A stretch of DNA of 64,000 bases from Branchiostoma floridae (Eukaryota; Chordata; Leptocardii; Amphioxiformes; Branchiostomatidae), in NCBI RefSeq assembly GCF_000003815.2, contig NC_049985.1:4272267-4336266 (forward strand). Reading direction: 5' to 3'. A program made the translations under genes and the position numbers. Shown one piece after another: positions 2,354-63,719 of this stretch (the stretch's first letter is position 1; every line of letters starts with the position of its first letter). Below the pieces are notes generated by a model, which was given only the letters and a program-made list of their open reading frames with translations, did no database searches and was not told where the DNA came from.

Positions 2354-5300
2354 ATGAAGTTTTTCACTCCGTTTCTTTCAGTGACTGTAACGTCGCTGTT
2401 TCTCCAATCCTGCCAGCCTGCCGTTGGAAAAAAGGTCCTTTTGGTACCCGTGCCGTTTGCAGAGAGCCATTGGATGGCCCAGGCCAGCCTAGGACGTGCC
2501 TTGGTGAACAGAGGCCATGTTGTGACCGCTCTGATGTCAGCAGATAGTTTGGCGGAGCGACGGTCTGCAGAGTTTCTGTTTGAGACCTTCGATGACCATG
2601 GCACCCGCGCAAGGCTGAAGGCGCTCGAAAGTCAGGTCTCCAATGCTGCAGAGATGTCTCTTGTGGGGGTGATACAAGCGGTGAGCATGCTGCCGCTGGA
2701 GATGGCGAAACACTGCGATTTTTTGTTTGGGGACGGTGAACTGTTGCAGCGACTGAGAGAATCACGCTACGGTGCCGTGGTCACCGACCCTTTCTTTCCT
2801 TGCGGAGCCATCCTCGCGGCGCACCTCCGGGTCCCTCATGTCGTCCACCTGCGGTCGAACCCCTACCGCATCGACCTCGCGGCCACAGGAGTCCCCCAAC
2901 CCCCGGCCTACGTGCCAGACTCGCTGCTGCCTTTCACCGACCATATGACATTTCTACAAAGGACGCAGAACGTTGTCGTCTCCGCCCTTGTGTCTCTGTT
3001 GTCCCAATGGATTCTAGGCAGCAACTTCGACGGTTTAGCCCGTAAGTTTGTAGGCGAGGACGAGACCCTTCTAAGCGCCATGTCGCGCGCCGACTTGTGG
3101 CTGTATCAAACAGACAACGTCTTGGATTTTCCCGCGCCCTCCATGCCCAACATGATCCAGGTCGGCGGGTTGAACGTCCGGGAGGTCGTCCCCCTTGCTG
3201 CAGTGAGTACACATACCTACGTGACTCCGGCCTCGTCGGATAGTAATCGCCTAAGCATTTGCACGAACCCTATGGAATTCGTACGAATATTATGTGATAC
3301 ACACGAATCACTATGCGAAAACGCACGAATATTATGAAATTCGCACGAATCACTATGCAAAAACGCACGAATATTATGAAATTCGCACGAATCACTATGT
3401 AATTCACACGAACATTATGAGATTTGCACGATCCTTATGCGAAATTGCGCAACCACTGCTGGGGTCACGTGACAGACGGAGCGGGATTTTGAAGATGGCG
3501 GCTTCGACCGGCGGCGACGGAAAATACGATGTTCACACGGCGAAATGAAGCAAAACAGTAGCTCACAGGCTATCAAATACATCTTTGCGACGGTAAATGT
3601 CCATTCCATGCCTTGAAATATAAATATCACGGGTAGAAAAGCTCAAAATCATGCCTCCTCCCGGCCGCCGTTTTTGCATAAGGATCGTGCAAATCTCATA
3701 AGGTTCGTGTGAATCACATAGTGATTCGTGCGAATTTCATAATATTCGTGCGTTTTTGCATACTGATTCGTGCGAATTTCATAATATTCGTGCGTTTTCG
3801 CATAGTGATTCGTGTGTATCACATAATATTCGTACGAATTTTTATAGGGTTCGTGCAAATGCTTAGGCACCCCTGGTAATAGATAGGGGACTTTAAATTT
3901 GACCATGTTTTTTAGTCTTTTTTAAGACTTGATCAACAAGGTTTTATGACAAACTATAATGGCTTCTTATCTTAACAATGAATACTTGGAATGTGTCATT
4001 TATGACATCAACAAGTTATGCTGAATTATGCTGAATTATGCTGATTAGCTGAATTATGCAAATGTGTATAAAGCCGCATCACACAGGCTTCGGAGTTTTA
4101 TCACATAGGCTTCCATCGAATGATTCGCCACACCAGTGCGGCGCGGTCGAAAATTCGAATACCTGAATCACCCTCCGGCATTCGGGCGATCCGACCCGCG
4201 GTCGGGCTGATACCTCGGGTGATAAAGAATACACCGTGTTGTTATTTTATTTATGTCATAACCAACTGAGAAAAAACATGTTTTGATGCAAAATGCGCCA
4301 GAAGTTGAACAAATTTGGTGCCCTAGAACAAAAAGTGTTGCAACAGCAATGTTCCAACGTCCGAATCAGTTATTCGAATTGTCAACCGTGCCACACTCGG
4401 CCCGCCGCTCGAAATGGTTCGATTTACTCGAAGAAAGCCTGTGTGATACGCCTTTCGAACCTGTGCGATACGGAAGTTATGGCCCGGTCCGGAACACCCG
4501 TATCGAACGTTTTCGCGTCACAGGCCTAGGTATGACATATTAAAGAAATACGTACACCGTGTTGTATTGTATATTTATCAAAAGTTTGAACTGCACAATA
4601 TTTTAGGACCTGGAAACGTTTGTCCAGAGCTCTGGAGAGGATGGCGTGGTGGTGGTCAGCTTTGGATCGATCGTCAAGACGATGCCCACGGAAAGAGCTG
4701 AGGTGTGGGCAGCAGCCCTGGCGAGGCTCCGACAGAAGGTGGTGTGGCGGTACACGGGAGAGAAGCCGGCCGGGCTGGGCACCAACACCAAGCTGATGGC
4801 CTGGCTGCCGCAGAATGATCTGCTGGGTGCGTGGGCAAAACAATAAGCTCAATCACCAGTCCTAGTGCGCATGTGTAGCGACATGGATTGTGGGTAATGT
4901 GTCAAAGGTTACGGTCCCTGAGACATATCCAAAACACTTCTGGACCTTGTTATACAAATCGAACGCGAGACAATAAAAAAGTAATGCTTACTACTCTTAC
5001 CAAGCAGAGGTTATGATTAGGCTCTGGTGCTTGTTTTGACGTTTTAGGCGTTTTTATCGCGCTTTCTATTCTTGATGTCTGGCGGCCGCGAGTCAGGGCC
5101 CATTGACATACTACCCAGAATCCCTGTCGCTGCCCATGCGTCCTCGGAATGGTGGTCGACATTATTTGCTTGTTTGTTTTATCAAGACCTCGTATTTTTT
5201 CGTGCGCCTTATGTGTTTTCAATTTGGTTTAGTGTGGGCTCTATTGTGCAGTCGTGTTGCTCCAACTCGCGGCGTTTTGTTACAGGTCACCCCAAGACCC

Positions 5301-8180: not shown

Positions 8181-11100
8181 ATGAAGTTTTTCACTCCGTT
8201 TCTTTCAGTGACTGTAACGTCGCTGTTTCTCCAATCCTGCCAGCCTGCCGTTGGAAAAAAGGTCCTTTTGGTACCCGTGCCGTTTGCAGAGAGCCATTGG
8301 ATGGCCCAGGCCAGCCTAGGACGTGCCTTGGTGAACAGAGGCCATGTTGTGACCGCTCTGATGTCAGAAGATAGTTTGGCGGAGCGACGGTCTGCAGAGT
8401 TTCTGTTTGAGACCTTCGATGACCATGGCACCCGCGCAAGGCTGAAGGCGCTCGAAAGTCAGGTCTCCAATGCTGCAGAGATGTCTCTTGTGGGGGTGAT
8501 ACAGGCGGTGAGCATGCTGCCGCTGGAGATGGCGAAACACTGCGATTTTTTGTTTGGGGACGGTGAACTGTTGCAGCGACTGAGAGAATCACGCTACGGT
8601 GCCGTGGTCACCGACCCTTTCTTTCCTTGCGGGGCCATCCTCGCGGCTCACCTCCGGGTCCCTCATGTCGTCCACCTGCGGTCGAACCCCTACCGCATCG
8701 ACCTCGCGGCCACAGGAGTCCCCCAACCCCCGGCCTACGTGCCAGACTCGCTGCTGCCTTTCACCGACCATATGACGTTTCTACAAAGGACGCAGAACGT
8801 TGTCGTCTCCTCCCTTGTGTCTCTGTTGTCCCAATGGATTCTAGGCAGCAACTTCGACGGTTTAGTCCGTAAGTTTGTAGGCGAGGACGAGACCCTTCTA
8901 AGCGCCATCTCGCGCGCCGACTTGTGGCTGTATCAAACAGACAACGTCTTGGATTTTCCCGCTCCCTCCATGCCCAACATGATCCAGGTCGGCGGGTTGA
9001 ACGTCCGGGAGGTCGTCCCCCTTGCTGCAGTGAGTACACATACCTACGTGACTCCGGCCTCGTCGGATAGTAATCGCCTAAGCATTTGCACGAACCCTAT
9101 GGAATTCGTACGAATATTATGTGATACACACGAATCACTATGCGAAAACGCACGAATATTATGAAATTCGCACGAATCACTATGCAAAAACGCACGAATA
9201 TTATGAATTCGCACGAATCACTATGTGATTCACACGAACCTTATGAGATTTGCACGATCCTTATGCGAAATTGCGCCNNNNNNNNNNNNNNNNNNNNNNN
9301 NNNNNNNNNNNNNNNNNNNNNNNNNNNNNNNNNNNNNNNNNNNNNNNNNNNNNNNNNNNNNNNNNNNNNNNNNNNNNGGAGAAAGTGCGCAACCTCTGCG
9401 GGGGTCATGTGACAGACGGAGCGGGCTTTACAAGATGGCGGCTTCGACCGGCGGCGACGGAAAATACGATGTTCACACGGCGAAATGAAGCAAAACAGTG
9501 AAGCTCACAGGCTATCAAATACATCTTTGCGACGGTAAATGTCCATTCCATGCCTTGAAATATAGATATCACGGGTAGAAAAGCTCAAAATCATGCCTCC
9601 TCCCGGCCGCCGTTTTTGCATAAGGATCGTGCAAATCTCATAAGGTTCGTGTGAATCACATAGTGATTCGTGCGAATTTCATAATATTCGTGCGTTTTTG
9701 CATAGTGATTCGTGCGAATTTCATAATATTCGTGCGTTTTCGCATAGTGATTCGTGTGTATCACATAATATTCGTACGAATTTCATAGGGTTCGTGCAAA
9801 TGCTTAGGCACCCCTGGTAATAGATAGGGGACTTTAAATTTGACCATGTTTTTTAGTCTTTTTTAAGACTTGATCAACAAGGTTTTATGACAAACTATAA
9901 TGGCTTCTTATCTTAACAATGAATACTTGGAATGTGTCCTTTCTGACATCAACAAGTTATGCTGAATTATGTTGAATTATGCTGATTAGCTGAATTATGC
10001 AAATGTGTATAAAGCCGCATCACACAGGCTTCGGAGTTTTATCACATAGGCTTCCATCGAATGATTCGCCACACCAGTGAGGCGCGGTCGAAAATTCGAA
10101 TACCTGAATCACCCTCCGGCATTCGGGCGATCCGACCCGCGGTCGGGCTGATACCTCGGGTGATAAAGAATACACCGTACGCGTGTTGTATTTTATTTAT
10201 GTCATAACCAACTGAGAAAAAACATGTTTTGATGCAAAATGCGCCAGAAGTTGAACAAATTTGGTGCCCTAGAACAAAAAGTGTTGCAACAGCAATGTTC
10301 CAACGTCCGAATCAGTTATTCGAATTGCCAACCGTGCCACACTCGGCCCGCTCGAAATGGTTCGATTTACTCGAAGAAAGCCTGTGTGATACGCCTTTCG
10401 AACCTGTGCGATACGGAAGTTATGACCAGGCCCGTCACAGGCCTAGGTATGACATAAGAAATACGTACACCGTGTTGGTATGACATAAGAAATACGTACA
10501 CCGTGTTGTATTGTATATTTATCAAAAGTTTGAACTGCACAATATTTCAGGACCTGGAAACATTTGTCCAGAGCTCTGGAGAGGACGGCGTGGTGGTGGT
10601 CAGCTTTGGATCGATCGTCAAGACGATGCCCACGGACAGAGCAGAGGTGTGGGCAGCAGCCCTGGCGAGGCTCCGACAGAAGGTGGTGTGGCGGTACACG
10701 GGAGAGAAGCCGGCCGGTCTGGGCAACAACACCAAGGCTGGCTGGCTGCCGCAGAACGATCTGCTGGGTGCGTTAGCAAACAATAAGCTCGCTCACCAGT
10801 CATAGTGCGCATGTGTAGCGACATGGATTGTGGGTAATGTGTCAAAGGTTACGGCCCCTGAGACATAACCAAAACACTTCTGGACGTTGTTATTCAAATC
10901 AAACGCGAGACAATAAAAAAAGTGACGCTTACTACTCTTACCAAGCAGAGGTTAGGCTTCGGCTGTTTAAAATTTTTAGGCGTTTTCATCAGGCTGTCTA
11001 TTTTGTACTCCTTTCTTGATGTCCCGCGGGCGCGAGTCAGGACCCAATGACATACTACCCAGAATCCCTGTCGCTGCCCATGCGTCCTCGGAACGGTGGT

Positions 11101-18173: not shown

Positions 18174-19434
18174 GCCTAACAGCCTGCCATCCAAGCCTGT
18201 GTAGTGCTGGTCAACCATCAGCCAATCAGATGCTCGCTCTCCTGTTGTTGGAGGTAAAACAATCAGCCAATCACACATGTACACTGCTGTCTAAGGTCAA
18301 GAGGCAATGTCATTGGCTGGTAACTTTCCCTCAAACTAAAGGAGGATTTCCTCCTTTGTTAGCCTGGGTACAATCCTCCCTCAGGTAACTGTAATAGCCG
18401 ATGTAGGTGGCACTTTTTCTCCTATATCCTTTGATCTACCAACCTGATAAAATTATTTTCGAAACCCAGGCTAATATTTCCAAGCATAAAAGAAAAATAC
18501 ATCACACAGAATTCCTTTAATAACTCACTTTCTGGAATGCTGGTTCTCAAAAATCCATTTCATACCTACCAAATAGTCTCTATTTGTTATTTTCAGATTG
18601 TTGCTTGTTCTTCTTTGTAGCATAGCAGCAAAGAAAGATGCTTTGTAGCATCTTTGATTAAATTTTAAACATGTTGGCAACAATATTGCAAATTCTTGAC
18701 AAAGACATCTGATATACATGTATGGCTGTCAAGTATTTGTACAATTGTGTGTAATCTTTTAAAAATAATGCTGAGAAGATGCCATGAATGTTCACTTGTT
18801 CAGTATCAGGACAGAATTCAGTACTACTGCAGATACGTTTGCTATTTTTGCAGCCATAGACTAAAAATATTACAAACGTTCAAAGAACACATCTTTACAC
18901 ATTTCAAAATACCATGTACAGTCTTTCATATCAAACTATGTACAGTGCAAATCGCGCTATTTCCACTATAATACACACGAGTGCCAACAACCAAACAGCT
19001 AACGTCCTCACAATCCAAACAGCTCCTATACAGTGTAACAGCACAATCGTTCCTTCATAGGCTTAAGCTTTGTTCTCATGGCCACAACTGAGCAATCAGG
19101 GTAACAGTTGTATTGGGGTCAACTGTGCCAGTGTTACATAACAGCCACCTTAGCGCTCAACCAACTTGGGTTTCTTGCAGCTAGAAGAGTACAGGGCCCG
19201 CAGTACGACGCGACAGCACAAATTCCTAGCGTCTTCTTCCAGCACTTCCCTATAAAGGAAATTCAAGCTGGAATTCTGGCTGGATCCACAAGAATTGCAG
19301 GTAGATTCCACACGTGCGTTGCCTCCATGTTCAAATGTTCAGTAAGCTGCGTGCACTGCAATATTACACCATAACACCGCCTTTCCTCCTTCCTATTGTT
19401 AATCACTCGCTCTGTCCATCCTTTCCGACCACCC

Positions 19435-22400
19435 CTAACTGTTCCCTCCGTCCTTTGTTACTACGACCTTGCGGAGTCTCGGGTTTCTCGCGCCAGCGGG
19501 TTTGGCGGAAGATGGCGGTGACGGAAGTGTTGGCAGAACGCCTGGTGTCTCCACCACGTGGTACCTGTAGTAGTGGTGATAGTTGGTTTATTGAGCAATA
19601 TAACATAGAAAATTGACATTGCACCAAAAACAATTGCAGGAGAGCATTTTACATACACTTTCAACCTATAGAATAAAACTAACACGAAGAATTACCAATA
19701 AAATAATGTCTGACATGGTCAACAATGATACTGTACATATCATAAAATATCAAAAGCAGGATGCAAGTTATTCAAAGCAATGCTACTGTCTAGCACCAAT
19801 AACAGTTCAGTTTTGTATGCTGACAAGGAGTTTAGCCAGAGTTTCGCACTTGTAAGGCAGGGTTGGACAAGTCCACTACCCCAATGTTCAGGGCAAGAGA
19901 AAGTGCTGATTGAGCAGGTGCATGACCTACTCCACTTGCCTGATCGGTAAGTAAGATTTTTCCATTGAGTGAGATTTTGATATACTTGTCACTTTTTGAC
20001 ATCAAGCAATGTCAACAAAGAAAAAAAAAAGCAATAATAAGAATTCCATTGCTGGAAGTGACATTTCAATGTTGGGTAAGTGAGAAATTGTTTCGAACAA
20101 GTAAATTTTTGCTTGCTCGATAGGAATTTTAGAAAACTTGTCCAACCCTGGGGAAAATTGAAGTGAATTCCTCAGCAGTCTGCCATGAGCCTACCTGAGG
20201 AGCCGGGGAGCGGATGACGGACTCAACGGCCTCCTTACAGATGGCCTCCCAGGAACTTGAGGGGGTGTGGAGAGCCCCGGTCTTGAAGGGAGCGACGGTC
20301 GGGCAGGGGGGGTCCTGGCGGACGGAGGGGGGGATGGGGTGGAATGTGGAGAGGTGGAAACAGAAGAAGACGTTGAAGGTCGTTGTCTTGGTCGGTTGTC
20401 TGATGGGAGATCTGGAAGGTGAAGACATGAACTTGTAAACAATAAGAACACAGGCAGATTTACAATAGATTATGTTCTTGGACTTACTGACCCAAGAAAA
20501 TAACAAGTGCGAAGCAGAGAAGAGTTGATAGTCATTTTCACCATGTTTCTAAAGTCAAACTTGGTCAAAATCAACAGAGGCTTTATTCTTGTACATGAAG
20601 GATTTTGAAGGGCTAGTGGGAGTCTTACACTCCGTCAAACAGATTCATTTGTAACAAAATGGACTGTTGTTTTGAGTGTTGCCCATTCATAAGTTTTCAC
20701 AGACAATTGCAGGTCCAGGTTCAGGTCTGGACTGGGACCTGACCCTCTGGTCCTGAACTGTACCTGTATCTGAATTTTCTGCACCGGTACCCACCCCTAA
20801 CCACAGTGCATCTCACTGCACATGCATGTTTAAATCCATAAACTGGATTTCAGATGTATTTGCTGCCCTTAACAACACCAGCACGAGAGGGGAACCTTTC
20901 CTTACCAGCAGTGATGTTGTGCACTGCCCTCATTGGTCCAGACCTGACCCCTGACCCGGTCACAGGGGACCGTCGGAGCTTCCCCGCCGAGGTCGGAGGT
21001 GAGGAGAGCATCGGGGATCGTCTTGAGTCCGAACTCCTTGTCATGCCGTGCTTTTGCCTACTGGGTTCAACCAAAGATGTTTTAAGAAACACTCAGATCT
21101 AGAGATGGCACATTTCACTCCCTTACCCATACTGCACTGTGACCTTAAATTTCAGCCCACAGACAACAACAGCAATAGTGAGATGGTTCACGTCTTTGTA
21201 ACATGTAACTAGAAAGGCCGACATTTGCTTAAGAGCAAATACAGCATATTTCAGCCATACCCCTTTCCACGCAACATTGGACTGTTCCAAATCACCCCTG
21301 CGCAAAAATGGAACATCCTCTTAACAGTACATTATCCCCCAAAGTGGACTGGTATTGTGAATTGATTCCAGGTAAAAACAGAGCTTGCTTCTATTTTTCA
21401 GAAAATGACAATAATCACACCTTCCATTCAGAAAATTTTCATCATGACTGAACATTGTTGAATGACTTCATGTAATGTCATTAACAATTTTCAGTACGAT
21501 AACTAGGTGTAAGTTTAAAAAAGTATAAGCTCCTTGTGATGTGGGTACATTTATTATTGCAGTGAACTTTTTTTATTCAAGTAGGGCATACGATTTAATA
21601 ATTATCAAGCAGGTGCAGGTACTGTAGGAGCGTTTGTTTTCTTCAAGCTGTAAAACTGTTAAACTGTTTTACTTTGTATGCAATCAGCCATCGAGCCTAT
21701 TCTTATTTTAGTTTAACAACTTCCTGCCAGACCCGGAAGATACGATTGAACCTTGTTCGAGGATTTATTTTCGTCTGTCTGGTCAGTCTGTTCATACCCT
21801 GGCGCTGAGAGTGTTTTATTGGGCTGAAACTCTGGCAGTTTAAAGTTACTTACAATTTAAATGTTCAAAGTTTATGTCAAACAACAACAGCACTAGGAAA
21901 TGTGGCCACTATAGACAGGTGGTCACTATAGAGAAAATGCTGATCTATTGACTAGGAGCCATACGTTACACATGATTTCAGTACACTGATCATTAATCAT
22001 ATAAACATTGCACAGGTAAGCCAATTGTTTAGATGTACAATTAAGTTCAAATAATTCTGAAGAGAAATATTGATGAGAAAATAATCATTCTCGCCACTGT
22101 CTAACTTATAATTACGTATCAAAACTAAACGCAGATTTTCTAACTAACGCACCTTTCGCCGACTTCCATATTTTTGTATACTGTTGAGCTAAGTAAAGTT
22201 TGTTGTTTATGAGGTTTTAGTTGTCTTTGAAGCTTTGACCCGAAATATTTTAAAGTCAAACTGCTGAAGAGAAGTAAGTGACTGCTACGATTATCGTAGA
22301 TATGGCCCTAAAAAAACTGATAAAAGAAGCCTTCTCAATAGTCTAAAATGCAAGAGCTTCCGGGGGGGCTTCGCCCACCTGGGTCCCCACCCCCCCCCCC

Positions 22401-25400: not shown

Positions 25401-28072
25401 CTGTTCCATATCAACCTTTTGCAGAAATGGACCAATTCCAAAACATTATCCCACTCCAAAATTGATTTTGAAAAAGTTACCCCTGATGGACTCTTCTCAA
25501 ACACCCCTTTCTATGCAAAATTGACTAGTCTATGATCAAAATATAAAAAGAAAGTTCACAACCCTAGGATGTTCCTAGGATAGCAATAATATTTTGCCAT
25601 CTAGTGGCTATGTTACTGACATGTTGTGAATATAGACATCACAAAGAAGGTTTGTTTGTAACTGCCATACCTGTCATCATCACTAGAGGGCGTTGCTGTA
25701 CGCCTGAGGGGTGTCTCCCTGCCACTCCTGCTGCTGCGGGCGGACGAGGGGCGACTCCCAGAGGTCGAAGGTCGGCTGCCAGTGCCAGGTCGGCTGCCAG
25801 TGGCTGCATGCCGACACAATATGATGTAAATGAAAATAAATTTGCCTAACTACATGTATCATGTTACAAACACTCAAAGTCTGCCATGATCAATTTCACC
25901 CAAACAAATTATTACAGTCTACATAATGTACAATTTCTTTTCTTGTAATACATAGAAGTATCTTTATAGATAATATAGATTTCAGAAAAAGACATCAAAC
26001 ATTTCAAAAAAATATTATACCTAATAGCTGTATTAATTTTCTTTTTTTATTTCAATGCGGTCAATCCAGTCTGCCTGCAGGACCAACTTTGGACCAAGCC
26101 AACCTTCCCATCCTGCCATTTTCCAGTTTGATCATCTTTTGCCTCACAACCTGTCACTCTGTGAAATTCAAATACCTACTAGTACACACTAGGACAAACA
26201 TATAGACTAAAAACAACACCTCAATTTTCATGAACGTGACGAATGTCGCAACAGAAGTATGTGGATCAGCCTGAACAAGAGAGGACACATCCACTCAGCC
26301 TTGCTTTCATTCCTTCAAACTACTTCCCCTTGCTCCTAGGCCCACTTAACATTGACACCGCTTAGACCTTCATGTGAAGCGTAGCTGATCTAGGAAATAA
26401 GGGTTGTGTGGCAGTATTTTTATGAATCAATGTGCGACCACCTCTGACCTGGTCCTGCGCCCGTTCTTCTTGTGTCTAAAGACAAACCATCACTGTAGTG
26501 TAGGGAAGTGTTGCATGACGGTATGACATTTTCAATGTAAAGTGGGCCTTATGTCTATTCTGCTGTTTTACTTCCAGTATCTCATGCTCACCTTTGTTGG
26601 TAGCATACTGGATCACCCCAGGGTTGTGTTTAGACAACAAGTCCTGCACATTCCTGCAACAGAAAATACCAAATCATGTATAAGTTCCTCCTTTTTTATA
26701 ATGCAATAGGCTATAGCTACATTCAGTCTTCATAAGTTGGATAAAAAATGTATGTGTGAGGGATCCATAAAAATGCATAACTTAAAAAAATGTGCTAGAA
26801 ATAGTGGCCGCAGTCATTCCTCAGTAAGACATCCGGATCCGCATACATGTAGTTCCAGTTTCAAACTTTAAGCAGCGTACCAACCTGGTTTCATTGCATA
26901 CGTCTTCAGCCAGCTAGAGCCGTAGAGGCTTCATGCCAGGCTGACTCAAGTTCTTTAACTGGAGCTATCCAGATGTCTTACTGAGGGATAACTGCGGTGT
27001 GATAGATGCCGATTTAATAGCTGAGGAATGAGTCCACTCTACTATACATGTATAATATTGTATCACCAGGTTTACCAGAAAAAAACATGTTACAAAATCA
27101 AATCCTACCTCCCCTCCGAGTTGGCACGTTCCTTCAGGTTCTGCAGTAGAAACTTGATCTCGTCCACGATGAGTTCCCTCTGCCGCGGAGGCTCGGGCAG
27201 CTGGCCGGATCGCAGCCCGGATCTCCTGCCGGATCCTGTCCGGATCAGCTGATCAGTGTCGTCACGGTAATCCTGCCAGATCTCTAGCAACGTCCTCACC
27301 TGGTGACATACATGAATTTGATACTCCTTTATCAAATCAACTTACACTTTTGAGGACCAAGGGGCCCTGAGCCTAGGCTGAATAGAAATTCTAACTGGAA
27401 ACCATGTAACTTCACTACCCACCCAAAAAAGGCAAGGGCTAAGGGTGGGAAAAGGTTTCTCTAGTCTACTAGTACGGTAGGTTGGAAAACAACACAACTT
27501 TTTTTTCCTAGGCCTAACAAAATATTCATATAGGGAAGAAAAAGATGTAAGAAACATCAAAAACTTCCGCAAATAGTTTCATCAGGGTGATAGATCAATT
27601 GAACAAAGTCCTCTTCGTAACTTACACAACCTTCCTTCAATTCTTCCGTAAACGTTTCAACGGCCGTTTGTCGCCTTCATCAGTACAAAAAAAAAAAGAA
27701 GAAAAAATTTTCTTTTTTGTTGTTTTTCCAATTTTTTTTTCACTGATGAAGGTGAAAGACTGTCGTTGGAACCATTATGGAAGACTTAAAGGAAGGTTGT
27801 GTAACGAAGAAGACTTTGTTCAATCAAAATGCCTCACAATAAGAACAAAATCATATGCACTGTATTTACACTTCTAAGTATCTAAATAAGTTCCAACTGA
27901 CCTCTGCATGAAGGTCCATACACTGCTCCACCAAGGTCGTTCCCAGGATGCCTTTCACCTCCTCTAGCTCGCCCGCCGGGACGTACTCCTCCACGGTCTG
28001 CCATAACGATGTCGGCGGCTCGTACGCCTCAAGGTCAAAACTGGCCTCAATGTCAGAAATGGGACTCTCCAT
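19435..28072 (-). CDS. CCDC24: Coiled-coil domain-containing protein 24
   Basis: Eleven minus-strand exons join with GT-AG borders and consistent phases into 445 codons: 28072-27902, 27299-27109, 26653-26592, 25803-25671, 25144-25076, 24904-24850, 24632-24557, 24301-24223, 21060-20906, 20411-20195, 19564-19435. I recall vertebrate CCDC24 blocks that match in order: SLWQTVEEYVPAGELEEVK near the N-terminus, RELIVDEIKFLLQNLKERA in exon 2, the highly similar LNVSRIDQVVEHLR in exon 5, LEQECSVLTQDIAFLQ in exon 6, and EPSLGELKTERSLLEKELQ spanning exons 7-8. The C-terminal third is Pro/Ser/Arg-rich and poorly conserved, so the last two exons rest on phase and splice sites only. The exon 5 acceptor (TATGAG, at 25145) is the least certain; a nearby CAG would introduce a stop. 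The protein has predicted coiled coils and no settled function. Confidence 0.88.
19858..20150. mobile_element. 293-bp terminal-inverted-repeat element (hAT-like ends)
   Basis: The ends CAGGGTTGGACAAGT and ACTTGTCCAACCCTG are perfect inverted repeats of 15 bp, and the inside is non-coding. A truncated relative at about 31965-32066 ends in AAAACTTGTCCAATCCTG. CAGGG ends are common in hAT elements, but no 8-bp target duplication is visible here, so the family is tentative. It lies in the last intron of CCDC24. Confidence 0.75.
20665..20803 (+). repeat. Dispersed repeat related to 488-620
   Basis: Reverse complement of the 488-620 repeat: ACAGACAATTGCAGGTCC to CCGGTACCCACCCCTAA. It lies in the intron between CCDC24 exons 9 and 10. 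Confidence 0.55.
22190..24110. repeat. Tandem dispersed-repeat block in CCDC24 intron 8
   Basis: Two related stretches (22190-22915 and 22925-23330) share GAATATTAATTAGCC, CTCTTCGCTGATTGGCT and a TCTAAAATGC..GAGC block. They are followed by about 3.5 copies of a roughly 163-bp unit (23430-23990) containing GGTACAGGGGCCAAAAGTGT and GTCAAATTTCAGCTCATT. Long open frames inside come from the repeat period, not from a gene. This block explains the unusually large intron between 21061 and 24222. Confidence 0.75.
26808..26997. mobile_element. 190-bp MITE
   Basis: Imperfect inverted ends: CCGCAGTCATTCCTCAGTAA on the left and TTACTGAGGGATAACTGCGG on the right, extending inward to ATCCGGA / TCCAGAT. 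Part of a relative is seen at 54962-55020 (CAGTCATCCCTCAGTAAGAC). It lies in CCDC24 intron 2. Confidence 0.7.
27598..27824. mobile_element. 227-bp MITE
   Basis: Inverted ends ATTGAACAAAGTC and GACTTTGTTCAAT continue inward with TCTTCGTAAC..ACACAACCTTCC and its complement, about 90 bp per arm. An A/T-rich centre (27690-27740) separates the arms. It lies in CCDC24 intron 1. Non-coding. Confidence 0.78.
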
Positions 28073-28574
28073 TCTTCCTGGGTATCCTTCAAGGTCACGT
28101 CAGAAATCCTCCCATTTTAGGGCTAAGAAAGTTTTTGAGAATTTTTTTTTCTTTCTTGTTTCTTATGCACGTTAGGTCATCATTCTCAGGTTGCATTTCA
28201 ACTCATGAAATGAGTCCTTCCATCTCTGAAGAAGCTATGGTAAGTCATCTAATAAAAAGTGCTGCTTCTTCTTCCTTGTGATTTGATTCCTTCACATCAC
28301 GTTTAAGAGGAAAGTCTCCATTTTGCAGGAAGGAGCATTCTCTCACTACAGTACAGGTCAAGAAAACAAGAAACAATCAAACAACAGCATTGCATGTCAT
28401 ACCTGGCTTTTGTGCATTCATTTCAGCATATCTAGTCCAAATTATGCGGAATATTTGTCGTCACTGGATTTCCAGTGCGGAAGGTACTCTCAGCACTCCG
28501 TTTCCTGAGTGAGTGCTGATTCGGAGTTTTCAAGGATCTTCCAGTGCTGAAGTCGTCTCACCACTTGACACCTA

Positions 28575-31600: not shown

Positions 31601-33702
31601 CTATATCCTGGCGTTGCCGGGTGTGTACTCGTCAGGAAACTGGAATGTCTTGGACCCCACGCCGCTGATTCTGGGCAGCGTGCCGGCGTTGGGGATGACG
31701 TTCCAGGACAGGGTCAAGGTCACGTTCTGGTTACCTCTGTGGGAGAACAAACCATACCTCATCATTAAACATTGTTATCATGCGATATCGAACTGAACTA
31801 TCAGAAGGCCACATTTCATGATGATTATTTCATGTAATTGTTACTTTCTACAGTCATGGCATCAAGCATTGGACAACACAAAAAAATAGAGCCATCAATA
31901 AAAGACTTCCACTGCTGAAAGTGAAAATACATAGAAAAATGTCATTTAAATTCCAGGCAACTGAAAAGTTGGTTCAGGCAAGTAAATTTTTCATTTATCA
32001 TTTTTTTAAATGTACTTGCCTGATAGGACGAGTGAATGTTAGAAAACTTGTCCAATCCTGAATAGTCTCTTACAAAAGGATTTTCAAATTGCCCAATGTA
32101 ACACAGAGAGCAGCATGTCTGCACCCACCTGAGTCCCTTCCCATCATCGAAGAAGTAGTATTTGGAGTGGAGGCTGCGGTAGTCCAGCCGAGCGTTCTCC
32201 CCTCTCCTGATGATCTTATCCCATAGAACAACCTGGTTCAGCTTCTACAGGTGGAAATAGAGACAGATATAATTTTGAGTAACTAAAAACACACTAGCAA
32301 GTTTAAATCAATGATTACATTCAAAATATGAACTTACAATGCTTAACTTTCTCTCAACATAAAGGTATACACGGCAAGGAGTGCTTTCTACTCAATCAAT
32401 GGGAGCCTGTGTGATATGGAAAATCATCATCTGGTCCCAATCCGGAACACTCATACCGAACGTTTTTGTGGCCCAGGCATGACAGAAAGTGCCTTACATT
32501 GTTTGGAGTGGTGTACTCTGCTGTCAGGTACAGGAAAAGCTGCTTCATGTTCCAGTTGAACAGGTGTTGGAGATGTGGGCTTTTGGTTAAGAAAAAACAA
32601 CTCAAACATACAGTTAAAATGGTCAACATTTCAAACATACATGTACAAGAAATGAATATCTTTGGATGGAATGTTCAACTGTATTAATGGGTAGTGTTAA
32701 CCTTGTTTACCAAACCTGAAGAAAGTCACACTTAAATTACATCAAAAGAACTTAAAATACAGCTAAAAAGGTAAGTACAATAATAACAACAACTGTCTGA
32801 CAAGAGCAGTGCAGTGTACTAGTAAGGATATCTGCTTGAAGGTCAAATGTGATGAAGCCAAGGTCATTCTTGTCTCTGGTTGTGCTGAAGTCCTGGACAT
32901 TTTTGCTGAAATAGTGAAAAATATGAAATCCATCAATCAAATGCTTTCTACTGTATGGATTTGCACACACATCCTTCAAAGCTGTAATGTACCATGAAGG
33001 ATGATCTTTGCTTTAGTAAAAATTAATTTAGTTCTAACAGTCCCTATAAGCATATCTTGGAAGCACCTCCAGCACACATCAAGACACTGCCGGTAACAGA
33101 AACAACAACAACAAATACCTCTGCCCACAGTCCATATGGTAAGTACTACAAGTCAACTAAATAACATTACGCACAAAGTTTTCTTAAAAGTTTGGTGAAA
33201 TAAATAAATTAAATATGAAGCTAGGTCATAAAACTCAGTTTTCAACTATTTCTAGAGAGAACTAAACAACTTTTATGGTGGGAACTGGGAAGACAACAGT
33301 CAAAAGGCAGAAGTCAATAATAAATTTCGGTTTCTTGCATGCATGTTTCCAGTTAACAAATCAAAAGCAAGGTAGAATATTTCAACTTCATGCATTTTTC
33401 TATGGTTGAATCTTTTACAGTATTTGTAGTTTACATATTGAACGAAGCCATCCCAATGTTAATATTCATCAATTGACCAGGTTGCCTATGCGCTGCGGCC
33501 ACGTAACCATTAGAACACACGAAAGCGTGTTTTGAAGGGGGAGGGGGGCGGATACTCACACGATGATTTTGTTGACGTCTATCTTGATGGGCGACAGATG
33601 GTCGTTCATGGAGGTCGTCAGGAAGCAGCAGAAGGTCAGCCCCGCCATCACGCTCAAGGTGAAGGCGAAAATCGTGTTCGCCCGGGATAAAACCGTGTTC
33701 AT
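31601..33702 (-). CDS. SPCS3: Signal peptidase complex subunit 3
   Basis: Five minus-strand exons give 181 codons (human protein 180): 33702-33560, 32905-32832, 32574-32498, 32244-32129, 31736-31601. Within the signal peptidase complex this ER membrane subunit is needed for removal of signal peptides. The N-terminus [20 protein letters not shown] forms the single membrane anchor. Conserved lumenal blocks follow: [51 protein letters not shown], and [18 protein letters not shown] with its N-glycosylation-type NVT. All junction phases agree. The junction between exons 2 and 3 only works as an AT-AC intron: Asp-Leu-Gln-His is restored by G|AT across it. Confidence 0.97.
32575..32831 (-). other. 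AT-AC U12-type intron of SPCS3
   Basis: On the minus strand the intron begins ATATCCTTAC (32831 downward) and ends CCCAC (to 32575). A branch-point-like TTCTTAAC lies just upstream of the 3' end. These match the U12-dependent consensus (ATATCCTT donor, TTCCTTAAC branch, AC end). No GT-AG choice keeps both frame and conserved residues: the only nearby GT (AGTACAC) and AG (AAAAG) give mismatched phases. Confidence 0.85.
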
Positions 33703-33962: not shown

Positions 33963-34720
33963 CCCAGGTAAAGGCCCATTACGTGCACTTCTTCAATTTT
34001 AGCGATGTCCGCACGGCCGGGCATACAATGCTATATTTTCCCGCCCCGGGTGAAGAATAGGGCCTCAATCCGGCCCCATTACGTGCGTTTTTTTTTTTTT
34101 TTTCAATTTAGCGTTCCGCACGTAGCCGTGGCCGGGCATACATGGCTATATTTTCCCGGCCCGGTAGACTTGGCAGTCAATCCGGCCCCATTACGTGCGC
34201 TTCTTCAATTTCAGCGGTGCCCGCACGTAGCCGTGGCCGGGCATACACTGCTATATTTTCCCGCCCCGGGTGAAGACTAGGGTCTCAATTCGGACCCATT
34301 ACGTGCGTTTCTTCAATTTTAGCGGTGTCCGCACGTAGCTGTGGCCGGGCATACATGGCTATATTTTCCCGCCCCGGTAGACTCGGCGCTAAATCCGGTC
34401 CCATTACGTGCGCTTCTTCAATTTCAGCGGTGCCCGCACGTAGCCGTGGCCGGGCATACACTGCTATATTTTCCCGCCCCGGGTGAAGACTAGGGTCTCA
34501 ATTCGGACCCATTACGTGCGTTTCTTCAATTTCAGCGGTGTCCGCACGTAGCCGTGGCCGGGCATACATGGCTATATTTTCCCGACCCGGTAGACTCGGC
34601 GCTAAAACCGGCCCCATTACGCGTGCGCTTCTTCAATTTCAGCGGTGCCCGCATGTAGCCGTGGCCGGGCACACACGGATACATTTTCCCGCGCTGAGTG
34701 AAGACTCGGCATCATTCCTT
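33963..34720. repeat. Satellite of about 107-bp units upstream of SPCS3
   Basis: Seven copies of a unit with CCATTACGTGCG..CTTCTTCAATTT, CCGCACGTAGCCGTGG and CATACATGGCTATATTTTCC, starting at about 33977, 34077, 34189, 34297, 34402, 34510 and 34615. Two subtypes alternate (one with TGAAGACTAGGG, one with TAGACTCGGC), giving a higher-order period near 213 bp. The array begins about 260 bp upstream of the SPCS3 start codon, so it flanks or overlaps its promoter. Its open frames are repeat artefacts. Confidence 0.88.

Positions 34721-41508: not shown

Positions 41509-63719
<22,211 letters not shown>

Follow-up and report, generated by a model that had tools for sequence, protein, structure and literature searches.

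A predicted AT-AC, U12-type intron in the signal peptidase gene SPCS3 of the lancelet Branchiostoma floridae

The SPCS3 orthologue located in a 64,000-nucleotide stretch of the Branchiostoma floridae genome (hereafter, the window; C7:4272267-4336266 of an assembly of 513,431,437 bases in 431 contigs) contains, as its second intron, what is almost certainly a genuine AT-AC intron of the U12 type. This assignment is made from genomic sequence. It is based on the gene model, the splicing motifs and their spacing, the reading frame, and a U12 snRNA gene found in the same genome.

The SPCS3 gene is located on the minus strand (33702-31601) and consists of five coding exons (Table 1), which upon splicing yield a 546-nt reading frame coding for 181 amino acids, without internal stops. 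The predicted protein is a full-length match to the Pfam SPC22 family (PF04573; profile positions 1-173 of 173, E 1.3e-64). It aligns with human SPCS3 (PDB 7p2p chain B) over residues 1-175 (E 1.9e-75), free of gaps and with identity at 108 of the 175 positions. Introns 1, 3, and 4 have GT-AG termini. Searches for SPCS3 relatives in viral contigs (8 pattern matches) and prokaryotic contigs (22) gave no match that was confirmed by tblastn. Upstream of SPCS3, the 34180-34642 segment is minisatellite-like, with recurring GRENIAVYARPRLRAGTAEIEEAHVMGPD-type units in the minus-strand translation. On the 3' side, minus-strand segments within 27111-28048 match the CCDC24 family (E 9.5e-11); a second match to this family in the same segment (E 0.0011) is under the cut-off score.

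Table 1. Coordinates (window positions) of the SPCS3 gene and of the signals in its predicted U12-type intron.
Feature	Position	Strand	Evidence
SPCS3 exon 1, coding part, start ATG at 33702	33560..33702	-	Gene model and human SPCS3 alignment
SPCS3 intron 1, 654 nt, GTGAGT...CAG, ordinary GT-AG	32906..33559	-	Gene model
SPCS3 exon 2	32832..32905	-	Gene model and human SPCS3 alignment
SPCS3 intron 2, 257 nt, phase 1, AT-AC, predicted U12-type	32575..32831	-	Letters, gene model, motifs, join scoring
Predicted U12-type donor ATATCCTT, +1 to +8 of intron 2	32824..32831	-	8/8 to published consensus
Putative intron 2 branch site TTCTTAAC	32586..32593	-	7/8 to TCCTTAAC; second A = 32587
AC acceptor of intron 2	32575..32576	-	Letters, gene model
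SPCS3 exon 3	32498..32574	-	Gene model and human SPCS3 alignment
SPCS3 intron 3, 253 nt, GTAAGG...TAG	32245..32497	-	Gene model
SPCS3 exon 4	32129..32244	-	Gene model and human SPCS3 alignment
SPCS3 intron 4, 392 nt, GTGGGT...CAG	31737..32128	-	Gene model
SPCS3 exon 5, coding part including stop	31601..31736	-	Gene model and human SPCS3 alignment

Read on the minus strand, intron 2 runs from ATATCCTTAC at 32831 to TTTTTTCTTAACCAAAAGCCCAC, its last bases being TTTCTTAACCAAAAGCCCAC (CCCAC) at 32575. Exon 2 ends with CTTCAAGCAG at 32832, exon 3 starts with ATCTCCAACACCTG at 32574, and a stretch of 22 residues across the junction is colinear with human SPCS3. Both the coordinates and the letters of the AT-AC intron reported in the initial annotation proved to be exact. 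Its claim that the intron matches the minor-spliceosome consensus at the donor, branch, and acceptor was borne out as well. When scored against the minor-class consensus sequences given in PMC2831892, the donor ATATCCTT at 32831 matched RTATCCTT at all eight positions (+1 to +8), while the branch site TTCTTAAC at 32593 matched TCCTTAAC at seven of eight. The single mismatch, a T in place of the consensus C, was interpreted as a G-U wobble pair with U12 snRNA. The distance from the presumed branch A (the second A of TTAAC, 32587) to the intron end is 12 nt (13 nt from the first A), and the optimal distance is 11-13 nt according to PMC3584512. The branch-to-acceptor stretch, CCAAAAGCCC, has, by reading, no pyrimidine tract, and the AC acceptor is found in CCAAAAGCCCAC. 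The ATATCCTT donor, the TCCTTAAC-like branch site, the AC acceptor, and the short spacing are all shared with AT-AC U12-type introns collected in U12DB and SpliceRack. Intron 2 departs from this class at the T in its branch site and at donor position +9, where it has an A and the RTATCCTTT consensus has a T. The initial annotation had described AT-AC introns as a small minority of U12 introns, which is roughly right: they make up ~22% of human minor introns, as stated in PMC6717393.

AT-AC termini may also be processed by the major (U2) spliceosome, as is the case with some sodium channel introns (PMC2831892). These introns have a G at +5, whereas the +5/+6 positions of intron 2 are CC; moreover, intron 2 has a branch site at a 12-nt spacing, and we consider its processing by the U2 machinery extremely improbable.

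To compare the AT-AC intron with other ways of joining exons 2 and 3, we scored all 7511 in-frame, stop-free joins within 32905-32498 (intron length, 30 nt or more) by aligning their products with human SPCS3. The highest score, 607, was common to three sliding registers: AT-AC (32831-32575), TA-CA (shifted by +1 base), and AT-AT (shifted by +2 bases). Since the three registers yield an identical protein, homology alone cannot choose between them, and the AT-AC register is singled out by its known terminal dinucleotides, which the other two lack, and by the register of the motifs. Thus, the AT-AC intron is not, as had been claimed, the only way to join the exons, though it is the sole top-scoring one with known termini. 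Five further registers with unusual termini scored 605. Another AC is located nine bases downstream; the corresponding AT-AC intron (32831-32566) is in frame, with a branch distance of 21 nt, and its use gives a protein of 178 amino acids and a score of 589.

Another explanation is that a GT-AG or GC-AG intron is removed instead, which would lengthen or shorten the protein, or that two such introns flank a micro-exon. Frame-keeping joins of this kind do exist (23 GT-AG and 15 GC-AG), and the best of them, a GC-AG join at 32812-32580, reached a score of 589 vs. 607 for AT-AC. However, none of the 38 joins yields 181 amino acids: the protein is eight residues longer in the case of the best GC-AG join, whose GCACTG donor is unlike the usual GTRAGT pattern, and 41 residues longer in the case of the best GT-AG join (score 556). 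The AT-AC product, in contrast, is colinear with human SPCS3 throughout the alignment. Single-intron GT-AG and GC-AG joins were therefore rejected by protein similarity. The results also show that the statement in the initial annotation that GT-AG alternatives break the phase was too strong, since some GT-AG joins stay in frame yet spoil the conserved stretch. An extra small exon between 32575 and 32831, named there as an outcome that would speak against the AT-AC intron, was considered as well. Of 580 in-frame micro-exon schemes with two canonical introns, the 450 whose products came within 25 residues of the expected length were scored; the best reached 578 vs. 597 for AT-AC on a separate scoring scale, and such schemes were likewise rejected by protein similarity. 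Taken together, explanations by canonical introns appear highly improbable.

A U12 snRNA gene was detected in the host genome at C6:18502588-18502735, minus strand, scoring 132.1 bits (gathering score, 53). In the alignment, its branch-recognition stretch does not differ from the Rfam family consensus. By inspection, this stretch can pair with UUUCUUAAC if a single G-U wobble is allowed and one A is bulged out. The computed energy of the duplex with the U12 stretch was −7.1 kcal/mol for intron 2, −9.1 kcal/mol for the consensus, and −5.0, −7.5, and −3.9 kcal/mol for introns 1, 3, and 4, respectively. Because the intron 3 duplex is formed by a stretch outside the branch position, the duplex energies do not discriminate between the introns. 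A tRNA gene (L001 1045-1116) is encoded on the other strand, at a distance of ~0.4 kb from this U12 snRNA gene. Scans of the window itself for Rfam families (at the gathering threshold) and for tRNA genes found nothing.

Exact copies of ATATCCTT occur four times in the window on both strands, and exact GTATCCTT occurs twice. Complete sets of donor, branch, and acceptor motifs within 3 kb were seen four times, vs. 1.275 expected, and AT-AC sets shorter than 600 nt once, vs. 0.125 expected (the expectation is the mean over 40 simulated 128-kb sequences generated by a first-order model of the window). The four sets seen thus make the motifs alone weak evidence. The three further complete U12-like sets, 18424-20884 (plus strand), 28082-28307 (plus), and 58433-57985 (minus), are little above chance. 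No exon boundary was evident in the letters at the ends of the first, and the other two lie on the strand opposite to nearby CCDC24-like and FRY-like exons; none of the three is put forward as an intron. For intron 2, the place is fixed by homology, and the joint chance of finding the donor, the branch, and the AC at one of the 8 registers allowed by the protein is ~3.5e-8, assuming independent bases and accepting up to one branch mismatch and six spacings. This value speaks against accidental motifs in a pseudogene or an assembly artefact. A second SPCS3 copy elsewhere in the genome is possible, which would be compatible with such an origin of the locus; yet the 181-codon frame, in five exons, is stop-free, and the three other introns are GT-AG. 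We regard a pseudogene or artefact as exceedingly unlikely.

The predicted AT-AC intron of SPCS3 is presumably removed by the minor spliceosome. In such a process, the U11/U12 di-snRNP would recognise ATATCCTT, which would be bound by U11 and later by U6atac, and U12 would pair with UUUCUUAAC, leaving the bulged A as the putative branch nucleotide. Ligation of exon 2, ending in the G at 32832, to exon 3, beginning with ATCTCC at 32574, would then be carried out by the minor spliceosome and would restore the D codon in the D-L-Q-H-L-F stretch. U11, U4atac, and U6atac are presumed to be present in the species, and introns 1, 3, and 4 would be left to the major spliceosome.

The assignment of intron 2 to the U12 type is supported by its motif features, by the U12 snRNA gene, and by the effect of a minor-spliceosome mutation on human SPCS3 transcripts. 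Argente and colleagues reported misprocessing of SPCS3 and SPCS2 transcripts in RNPC3-mutant patients, and a link between signal peptidase subunits and minor splicing was proposed to play a role in human growth hormone deficiency (PMC3958305). Human SPCS3, together with intron 3 of human SPCS2, resembles the lancelet case in gene family (signal peptidase complex) and in being a minor-spliceosome target as judged from the transcripts of these patients (PMC3958305). Intron 2 was likely inherited, and is putatively the same intron as that of vertebrate, including human, SPCS3. An AT-AC U12 intron is also present in a gene for a different subunit of the complex, SPC25 (SPCS2) of Trichinella spiralis (EST ES570647.1), where the donor is ATATCCTTTC and the branch site is TTCCTTAAC; this intron is marked as lost in C. 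elegans (PMC2846911). Literature searches connecting SPCS3 with U12-type introns, minor introns, or the minor spliceosome gave nothing beyond PMC3958305 among the matches listed, those combining signal peptidase, AT-AC, and U12 gave nothing beyond PMC2846911, those combining Branchiostoma and U12-type introns matched three papers, and those combining lancelet and minor intron gave no match.

Two other loci of the window contain repeated coding segments. An exon region with a MOR2-PAG1_N domain, which we take to belong to a FRY-like gene (Pfam gives the domain only), lies on the plus strand at 62081-62583 in three tandem copies: 62081-62211 (used as the reference), 62239-62369 (69%), and 62453-62583 (95%). 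Only the last copy extends into a longer family match (61 residues vs. 36 for the first), and a PDB search with a FRY-like exon gave no match. The triple could be a decayed partial duplication of an exon. At the other locus, two 327-amino-acid ORFs, 2354-3337 and 8181-9164, start 5827 bases apart and are near-identical where compared; the first matches UDP-glucuronosyltransferase. Both are trailed by similar downstream segments, and the pair is apparently a recent tandem duplication.

Introns of the U12 type form a well-established class, and SPCS3 has been studied before, in human, as a minor-spliceosome gene; intron 2 is thus an ordinary, though clean, example of this class in a gene whose connection with minor splicing was known beforehand. 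The initial annotation had stressed that the intron would make expression of a signal peptidase subunit depend on the minor spliceosome. Such a dependence agrees with the effect on human SPCS3 transcripts, while its importance was overstated, since disturbed processing of human SPCS2 and SPCS3 transcripts upon loss of minor splicing is already published (PMC3958305). A broader proposal, which we consider unlikely, is that U12 introns have been retained in SPCS2 and SPCS3 across deep animal divergences because slow minor splicing sets secretory capacity, so that signal-peptide processing is tuned by minor-spliceosome activity throughout animals. On the practical side, gene finders limited to GT-AG introns are expected to miss or distort intron 2, so that the SPCS3 protein predicted for this species would be wrong. 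The lancelet is one more animal with a signal peptidase subunit gene that appears to need the minor spliceosome.
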